From assembly GCF_025154015.1 (NCBI RefSeq), contig NZ_JAOAMV010000001.1, forward strand, positions 620,001-684,000: 64,000 nucleotides of DNA. The letters are read 5' to 3'. This stretch comes from Tsuneonella litorea. GTDB taxonomy: Bacteria > Pseudomonadota > Alphaproteobacteria > Sphingomonadales > Sphingomonadaceae. Position 1 is the stretch's first letter, and every line of letters begins with the position of its first letter. Made by a program: the position numbers and the translations under genes. Positions 15,854 through 64,000 of this stretch are shown piece by piece. The notes under the pieces were generated by a model. That model worked only from the letters and a program-made list of their open reading frames with translations. It was not told where the DNA came from and did not search any database.

Positions 15854-16348
15854 CTAGATGGCCTGGCCCCACGGCGCGCAGTGCGGATCGGCGGCGACGA
15901 GCTGGCGGCGCAGCGCGGTGCGGGCGAGCCGCTCGACCTCGACCTTGCGGCGGGCGGCGGCGAGCGGGTGGCTCGGCGCGGGGCGGACGATCTCCGCGTC
16001 GTAGCCGTCGGCCACGATCACTCCGCAGCAGTCGGGCTGGAAATCGAGCCCGTCGAGGATCGTGCGGTCGATCCCTGGCGCAACCCCCCAGTAGAACCGG
16101 TCGCAGAAATCGAGATAGTCGGGCCACTTGCCGTCGCCGACGAGGTCCGCGCGGCTGACCTTGATCTCGACGATAACGATGCGTCCCTTCGGATCGACCC
16201 CCATCAGGTCGGCCCGGCGCCCGTTCCGGAGCGGCATTTCGGGCAGGCACCAGATGTCGTTGCGCGCGAACAGGCGGCATATTCCGCGCGCCACCGCGAT
16301 GGCGTCATGACGGTCGGCGGCGAGTGCGAGCGCGGGCGAGTCGGGCAT
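15854..16348 (-). CDS. mmcB: MmcB family DNA repair protein
   Basis: A 164-residue protein matching MmcB, a PD-(D/E)xK-like nuclease-fold protein of alphaproteobacteria. The core motifs are RRADLMGVD and IVIVEIKVSRADL, with D...ExK spacing, followed by WPDYLDFCDRFYWGV and CCGVIVADG. In Caulobacter, mmcB was described as SOS-regulated and needed for mitomycin C resistance. A sequence fitting the alphaproteobacterial LexA box lies 13 bases before its ATG (see the site at 16361-16375), which agrees with that regulation. It appears monocistronic. Confidence 0.9.
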   Translation of the reverse strand: MPDSPALALAADRHDAIAVARGICRLFARNDIWCLPEMPLRNGRRADLMGVDPKGRIVIVEIKVSRADLVGDGKWPDYLDFCDRFYWGVAPGIDRTILDGLDFQPDCCGVIVADGYDAEIVRPAPSHPLAAARRKVEVERLARTALRRQLVAADPHCAPWGQAI

Positions 16349-16360
16349 CGCACCTTGGTG

Positions 16361-16375
16361 GAACAGATGTGGAAC
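16361..16375 (-). promoter_or_regulatory. LexA-box-like site upstream of mmcB
   Basis: The plus strand reads GAAC-N7-GAAC, that is GTTC-N7-GTTC on the strand of mmcB, which is the direct-repeat LexA box established for Caulobacter and other alphaproteobacteria. It sits 13 to 27 bases upstream of the mmcB start codon, a position that would block transcription or early elongation. The match to all eight fixed bases is seen directly; binding is inferred. Confidence 0.7.
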
Positions 16376-16447
16376 GCCGTCAACGGCCTGTTTGCGGCGT
16401 GCGCTTCCCGTTTCTGCCCGCCGGGCGGATGCCGGCTGGCGCCGCGA

Positions 16448-62668: not shown

Positions 62669-64000
62669 ATGGAGACGGGAACTTCGAAAGCACCGCCGCG
62701 CCCGCTGCGCGTCGCGCTCGCCGGCGTCGGCACGGTGGGCGCGGGCGTCGTCCGGCTGCTCGACGCCAATGCGCGGCTGATAGAGGCGCGGGCCGGGCGC
62801 GCGATCCGGGTGGTCGCGGTCAGCGCGCGCGATCGCGACAAGGATCGCGGGGTCGACCTTTCGCCGTTCGCCTGGTGCGACGACATGACCGCGATGGCGG
62901 CGCGCGACGACGTCGACGCGGTCGTCGAACTGGTGGGCGGCGCCGATGGGCCAGCGCTGACCCTGGCGCGCAACGCGATCGCCGGCGGCAAGGCGCTGGT
63001 GACGGCCAACAAGGCGATGATCGCCCACCACGGCCTCGCGCTCGGCGAGGCCGCCGAAGCGGCCGGGGTTCCGCTCAAGTTCGAAGCCGCCGTCGCGGGC
63101 GGCATCCCGATCATCAAGGGCCTGCGCGAAGGGGCCGCCGCGAACGCCATCGACCGGGTGCAGGGCATTCTCAACGGCACCTGCAACTTCATCCTGTCGA
63201 CGATGGAAGACACCGGCCGCGATTTCGCCGACGTGCTCGCCGAAGCGCAGGCGAAGGGCTTTGCCGAAGCCGACCCCACCCTCGACATCGAGGGCATCGA
63301 CGCGGGGCACAAGCTCGCGATCCTCGCTGCCATCGCGTTCGGCGCGCGGCTCGATCTCGACCATGTCAGCTGCGAAGGGATCGCGCGGGTGCGCGCCGCC
63401 GACATCGCCCGCGCGCGCGATCTCGGCTTCGTCATCCGGCTTGTCGGCGAGGCGGACGTCGAGCAATCGGGGAGCGGCGGCGCGGCGCGGCTGCTCCAGC
63501 GCGTCCGTCCGTGCCTCGTCCCGCGCGACCATCCGCTGGCGCACGTCGACGGACCGACCAACGCGGTCGTGGCGCAAGGCAATTATTCGGGGCGCCTGCT
63601 GTTCCAGGGGGCAGGCGCAGGAGACGGGCCGACCGCGAGTGCCGTGGTCGCCGACCTGATCGACATTGCTCGCTGGGCGGCCAGGAACGGTTCGGCCGGC
63701 GGAGATGCCGGCGGAGAGACCGGGGGCGCCTTCTCGATCCCGGTCGGCGCGCTCGTCGCCATGGCCCCGGCCGAGCCCGGTGAGCGGCGCGGACGGACCT
63801 ACATCCGGTTCACCGTCGCCGACCGGCCCGGCGTGCTCGCCGAGATCACCGCAGCGATGCGCGATGCCGAAGTGTCGATCGAGAGCCTGATCCAGCAGGG
63901 CGAGCCCGACGAGGCGGGCGAAGTGCTGGTGGCGATGGTGACTCACGAAGGGGCCGAGAGATGCGTCAGCGAGGCGCTGCGCCTGCTCGACGGTTCGGCG
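62669..64000 (+). CDS. hom: Homoserine dehydrogenase (3' end beyond window)
   Basis: The ATG at 62669 has an AGGAG site and opens a 444-codon frame that runs off the window. The NAD(P)-binding motif is ALAGVGTVGAGVV; the catalytic part has VTANKAMIAHHG, FEAAVAGGIPIIKGL, ILNGTCNFILSTME and EADPTLDIEGIDAGHKLAIL. A C-terminal ACT domain begins at about RTYIRFTVADRPGVLAEIT and suggests feedback control by threonine. It reduces aspartate semialdehyde to homoserine for Thr, Met and Ile synthesis. Only the last few residues should be missing. Confidence 0.96.
   Translation, partial: METGTSKAPPRPLRVALAGVGTVGAGVVRLLDANARLIEARAGRAIRVVAVSARDRDKDRGVDLSPFAWCDDMTAMAARDDVDAVVELVGGADGPALTLARNAIAGGKALVTANKAMIAHHGLALGEAAEAAGVPLKFEAAVAGGIPIIKGLREGAAANAIDRVQGILNGTCNFILSTMEDTGRDFADVLAEAQAKGFAEADPTLDIEGIDAGHKLAILAAIAFGARLDLDHVSCEGIARVRAADIARARDLGFVIRLVGEADVEQSGSGGAARLLQRVRPCLVPRDHPLAHVDGPTNAVVAQGNYSGRLLFQGAGAGDGPTASAVVADLIDIARWAARNGSAGGDAGGETGGAFSIPVGALVAMAPAEPGERRGRTYIRFTVADRPGVLAEITAAMRDAEVSIESLIQQGEPDEAGEVLVAMVTHEGAERCVSEALRLLDGSA

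Follow-up and report, generated by a model that had tools for sequence, protein, structure and literature searches.

The locus lies within a window of 64 kb (the whole stretch of DNA that was analysed) and comprises the gene mmcB on the reverse strand, a direct repeat shortly before it, and the elements of a putative core promoter enclosing this repeat:

16379..16384, (-) strand: -35 element GTTGAC (family consensus CTTGAC), from the sequence and the family alignment
16361..16375, (-) strand: LexA box GTTCCACATCTGTTC, from the sequence and its conservation in the family and in named relatives
16355..16360, (-) strand: -10 position CACCAA, weak, placed by the family-wide Y at -12 and A at -11
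16346..16348, (-) strand: mmcB ATG, the predicted transcription start (leaderless mRNA) according to promoter geometry
15854..16348, (-) strand: mmcB open reading frame, 164 aa, MmcB-like DNA repair protein (PF06319)

The repeat matches GTTC-N7-GTTC, the operator motif of alphaproteobacterial LexA, and exactly 12 bases (16349-16360) separate GTTCCACATCTGTTC from the mmcB ATG. The first-pass annotation had given the sequence, strand and coordinates of the repeat correctly, while its distance of 13 bases to the mmcB start was one too long. Scanning the window for the exact motif returned two matches versus a mean of 1.66 in shuffles, with at least two in 51 of 100 shuffles. The other match (63068-63082, plus strand) is located within a coding sequence predicted to run from 62669 to the window end and is probably due to chance; thus, the gaps of the 64-kb window contain no other exact box, and the earlier annotation had noticed none in the gene-free gaps that it read by eye.

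The product of mmcB scored 134.7 bits against PF06319 (E 2.7e-39, cut-off 22). Four residues, E37, D47 and E61-x-K63, which we take to be the catalytic motif of PD-(D/E)XK enzymes, did not vary across 15 aligned homologues, among them that of the window, and the corresponding spacing pattern recurred in all 73 sequences that could be parsed from 80 named relatives tried. A profile of the 15-homologue alignment also matched PDB 3dnx (E 8.2e-66). Such invariance is as expected for a PD-(D/E)XK nuclease, the family in which MmcB has been placed (PMC9578287).

To establish how widely the repeat is retained, 119 genomes from the window's family were searched with PF06319; 113 of them, the window's own again included, contained mmcB, and these loci were handled in two batches. 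The exact box was present on the mmcB strand in 95 of the 113 genes (93 of the first 110 and two of the last three) within the approximately 430 nt scanned, and in none on the other strand, compared with one match in 113 for a reversed-motif control (none in the first 110, one in the last three). Permitting one mismatch within 200 nt on both strands gave 101 of 110 versus 6 of 110 for the control. The exact box is absent in 18 of the 113 genomes. The 17 boxless loci of the first batch comprise eight with a one-mismatch box, positioned 9-24 nt before an in-frame ATG, two with the first half only and seven with nothing recognisable; where two mmcB genes of a genus were sampled and at least one missed the box, both members missed it in three of four cases. 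By hand tally, 74 of 88 genera hold the exact box in at least one member.

The repeat was likewise found in all 80 nearest named relatives, the best 80 of those listed (Tsuneonella, Erythrobacter, Qipengyuania, Novosphingobium and others, with Tsuneonella rigui as the best listed match at 91%), a set that is biased towards near kin and overlaps the first in some species. Here, one extra true match on the opposite strand and one reversed-control match were noted. Apart from the CTTGAC element, the columns within 60 nt before the box were unconserved in the 93 aligned family members, and conservation of the box is thus not mere close kinship. The first-pass annotation had proposed a LexA operator within an SOS circuit conserved in the lineage, and the proposal is supported by these counts, both GTTC blocks being kept in related genomes far beyond the controls.

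Aligning the 93 family members on the box revealed CTTGAC at -9 to -4 before it and a Y-A pair directly behind it. With the ATG set as +1 for the 46 loci with a box-ATG distance of 12, CTTGAC occupied -36 to -31, with Y at -12 at a frequency of 0.98 and A at -11 at 0.96. In the window, TTGAC (16379-16383) is exactly in place, its TTG beginning at 16383 and hence 35 nt upstream of the first base of the ATG, and the 17-bp spacer consists of the LexA box and the two bases preceding it; the -10 hexamer CACCAA has two of six matches to TATAAT. Across the 93 loci, the box-ATG distance was 12 nt in 46, 11 in 12, 13 in 13 and 14-17 in 17, with 4, 5 and 9 nt in one each and two loci (L096 and L185) without an ATG at 3-20 nt, the start being defined as whichever in-frame ATG came closest to a distance of 12 nt, a choice that favours 12. 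In L185, the nearest in-frame start after the box is a TTG at 12 nt, followed by an ATG at 51, and a TTG start would be unusual for a leaderless message.

At least four of the five TTGAC positions matched just before the box in 57 of the 93 loci, as compared with 15% of 1395 control windows further upstream, and in 50 of these 57 the TTG is found 34-36 nt from the ATG. Among the best 80 named relatives listed, 79 contained at least four such matches, all 79 at 34-36 nt from the ATG with ties broken towards 35. A strict joint test required an exact TTG at 34-36 nt upstream of an in-frame ATG together with Y-A at 16-18 bp. Loci with the box passed it in 51 of 93 cases in the window's family and in 5 of 10 in other families, those without the box in 2 of 17 and 10 of 77, respectively. 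The usual distance of 11-13 nt between box and ATG can, we propose, be explained by the box taking up the spacer between the -35 and -10 elements. This apparent placement inside a core promoter is new here and was missed by the earlier reading, as was the prediction that the start codon itself is the transcript start.

Beyond the family, 241 genomes sampled from the class yielded mmcB in 114, including four from the window's family itself, and 87 of the 110 genes from other families were examined (one, L225, with just 221 nt upstream). The exact box was recovered in 10 of the 87, seven times on the mmcB strand and three times reversed (L207, L258 and L413), leaving 77 without it. Within 200 nt, nine of the first 70 loci have the exact motif (control: one); allowing one mismatch raises the counts to 22 of 70 and 9 of 70, respectively. 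Families with the box include f18 (three of three examined), f52 (two of two, reversed) and f4 (two of three). Thus, with 10 of 87 elsewhere, the circuit is mainly a family trait and scattered outside. By hand count, a TTG is located 35 nt before an in-frame ATG in L240, L248, L255, L256, L258 and L413, and 36 nt before it in L241, so that seven of the ten boxed loci keep the TTG-ATG spacing despite a shift of the box by a few bases or its reversal; L206, L207 and L245 are without a TTG at 35-36 nt before the ATG. In L258 and L413, the reversed box still lies between the TTG at 35 nt and the ATG.

The housekeeping promoter of Zymomonas mobilis is described as TTGNNN, a 17-bp spacer, TANNNN, a 6-bp discriminator and the start (PMC7566282), and 93% of the RpoD motifs of Caulobacter have their first base 34-37 nt upstream of the transcription start (PMC4287350). 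Transferring the Z. mobilis geometry (6 + 17 + 6 + 6 = 35) to mmcB would make the first base of the ATG the transcript start. The promoter geometry hence suggests that the mmcB mRNA is leaderless under LexA, and transcription starting on the start codon is our proposed reason for the nearly fixed box-ATG spacing. Leaderless mRNAs are common in the alphaproteobacteria, the counts being 375 for C. crescentus, 171 for S. meliloti and 119 TSS-gene pairs for Z. mobilis (PMC4117421, PMC3616915, PMC7566282), which the mmcB message would resemble in its predicted AUG at the 5' end and in having no Shine-Dalgarno sequence. LexA has 0 occurrences in the main texts of these three papers, the supplementary lists of which may contain mmcB.

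Indeed, a core Shine-Dalgarno was recognised in one of 91 mmcB leaders versus 10 of 49 window genes, the latter hand-picked from 62 calls, and pairing of the 20 nt before the mmcB ATG with the anti-Shine-Dalgarno is weaker than in shuffles of these 20 nt (median -0.9 versus -2.2). A Shine-Dalgarno sequence as the cause of the fixed spacing was consequently rejected. As the window genes' own Shine-Dalgarno signal is weak (p 0.10 versus shuffles), the missing sequence at mmcB represents modest evidence. A downstream alternative start equipped with a ribosome site was also discarded, being seen in 1 of the 73 parsed loci only (80 named tried). Over the first approximately 18 codons, the third position was the most variable in all three groups (0.65-0.71 versus 0.49-0.65), a weak bias that only slightly favours translation from the mmcB ATG.

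The promoter of lexA in the same family offers an internal comparison. A match was obtained in 44 of 44 genomes, and the exact box was present in 29 of the 30 loci examined, with TTGAC at -28 to -24 and TA at -5/-4 before it. The lexA promoter thereby shares with mmcB the motif and the CTTGAC-17 bp-TA promoter type; however, the box covers the -10 end and the predicted start rather than the spacer, and its distance to the start codon is variable (14-124 nt in 29 loci, measured to the in-frame start codon closest upstream of the domain). This variation indicates that the approach detects an ordinary leadered promoter where one is present.

It is conceivable that the box is a working LexA operator while the main mmcB mRNA starts further upstream with an ordinary leader, TTGAC and YA then representing a minor promoter. 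About half of the Z. mobilis leaderless units also possess an upstream promoter (PMC7566282), the -10 hexamer in the window is weak, and Shine-Dalgarno signals are weak in this genome anyway. Against it, the 60 nt preceding the box hold no other conserved element, a core Shine-Dalgarno is present in 1 of 91 leaders only, and the mmcB box-ATG distance is nearly fixed as compared with the 14-124 nt at lexA. We therefore consider the upstream start unlikely.

Whether the repeat is read by LexA was addressed in the window's own genome (3.03 Mb in 32 contigs), which was scanned for exact GTTC-N7-GTTC. The motif is in excess, with 81 matches versus 53 for the motif read backwards, and 33 of the 81 lie outside called genes as defined by a home-made and rough codon model. 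LexA itself is present (TIGR00498, E 8.1e-51; L042), with a box of its own 33 nt before the called start, and exact boxes also adjoin recA, uvrA, a uvrD-like helicase gene, rmuC and radA (TIGR00416). Further genes adjoining intergenic boxes are a repair-type radical SAM gene (TIGR03916) and a PA0069-type radical SAM gene. The own-genome side of the first-pass claim is hence sustained as well, by LexA together with the motif at lexA, recA, uvrA, rmuC and others. Boxes adjoin non-obvious SOS genes too, for example lolA, a glyoxalase-type gene and rpsB, and some matches at non-SOS genes are surely due to chance. When the -35 phase was assessed at the 81 sites, mmcB alone had five of six matches to CTTGAC; two in-gene sites had four and the others at most three.

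A different regulator reading the same direct repeat at mmcB was also contemplated, as LexA binding there is inferred and the inner bases differ, mmcB boxes mostly ending in TGTTC versus lexA boxes with ATTCGTTC. The same eight fixed bases nevertheless adjoin lexA, recA, uvrA and rmuC in the own genome, and in Caulobacter the SOS box is GTTCN7GTTC (Table 1 of the review PMC9578287) and mmcB is SOS-regulated, rendering this explanation highly improbable. A functionless chance match, the first hypothesis and one that fits the window alone, with two matches for 1.66 expected, is scarcely credible and was rejected by comparison of relatives, since 95 of 113 family genes and all 80 nearest named relatives listed keep the box at one position while the flanks vary.

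Aggregated, these sequence comparisons point towards the repeat being, very probably, a working LexA operator of mmcB and thereby a DNA-damage switch. In the SOS response, LexA cleaves itself upon DNA damage, which frees the promoters it occupies. At mmcB, LexA bound to GTTC-N7-GTTC would fill the spacer between the -35 element (TTGAC) and the -10 element of the one conserved promoter, and we propose that RNA polymerase cannot bind while the spacer is thus occupied. DNA damage would then, via RecA-triggered LexA cleavage, leave the mmcB promoter free, and transcription from the A of the ATG would yield a leaderless mRNA for the MmcB nuclease. LexA binding, damage induction and the exact transcript start of mmcB are what we infer from the comparisons, and to the full model, with the LexA operator in the promoter spacer and a damage-released leaderless mmcB mRNA, we attribute a probability of roughly 85%. 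Of its parts, LexA control is all but certain from the comparisons, and leaderlessness is a good prediction.

A LexA box at mmcB is already known from Caulobacter. The gene of Caulobacter crescentus shares with that of the window its name, Pfam family and GTTCN7GTTC operator, and DNA-damage control has been described there; the passages on it in that review (PMC9578287) do not mention leaderlessness. Conservation of the box in the window's family and its placement in a leaderless promoter were not found among the matches listed for the open-licence literature, which is weak evidence of absence, and no SOS study in the window's family appeared among the titles listed. The present findings would extend SOS control of MmcB, a nuclease, beyond Caulobacter to a large family, and they provide the concrete prediction that the mmcB transcript starts on the A of its own ATG. 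Moreover, two layouts of one operator in one family, in the spacer at mmcB and over the start site at lexA, constitute a natural comparison of how position determines repression and timing.

Some further genes may use a similar layout. In rmuC of the own genome (L037), 6 nt separate the box from the ATG, and the TATGTT that the box contains may serve as the -10 element. Of 41 rmuC loci matched, 30 were fetched (L259-L288), 18 of which have a box at most 45 nt from the ATG of a long open reading frame, and TA was read by eye at -13/-12 or -12/-11 in 10 of these 18 readable loci. The pattern is no more than suggestive of rmuC being partly leaderless and LexA-controlled. A PA0069-type radical SAM gene (NF033668; L044:2080-2101) similarly has an exact box followed at 6 nt by an in-frame ATG, with the rmuC-like layout TATGTT, 7 nt and ATG. 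One may speculate that a set of sphingomonad SOS genes (mmcB, rmuC and the PA0069-type radical SAM gene) is transcribed from leaderless promoters clamped by LexA, in which about 38 bp hold the operator, the core promoter and the start codon; this would allow 70S initiation of repair proteins when damage impairs normal translation initiation. The layout might then be older than the family, because in f4, f18 and f52 (seven genomes) the mmcB box, forward or reversed, precedes an ATG that is spaced 35-36 nt from an upstream TTG. As a generalisation, we regard this as doubtful.

Several additional boxes of the own genome are located at less expected genes. Two exact boxes, 240 bp apart, lie upstream of a 163-aa open reading frame (P0001; L077:2063-2317) with no Pfam or NCBIfam match. 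Another exact box (L076:2044-2058) stands 340 nt before an MzaB-like gene of the MZA anti-phage system (NF041932, E 7.4e-49, a match well below the cut-off to a protein cut by the locus end), hinting at a possible SOS link of this defence locus. In the pair of loci L059 and L004, two exact boxes are situated 1-2 kb from a TrwC-type relaxase gene, and one at roughly 0.5 kb from a gene whose match to a phage terminase is weak and below the cut-off; the mobile elements there are possibly tied to the SOS response. Finally, the exact box GTTCCCTATTTGTTC (L065:2052-2066) precedes rpsB, encoding ribosomal protein S2, by 228 nt and, if real, would make rpsB an unexpected SOS target.
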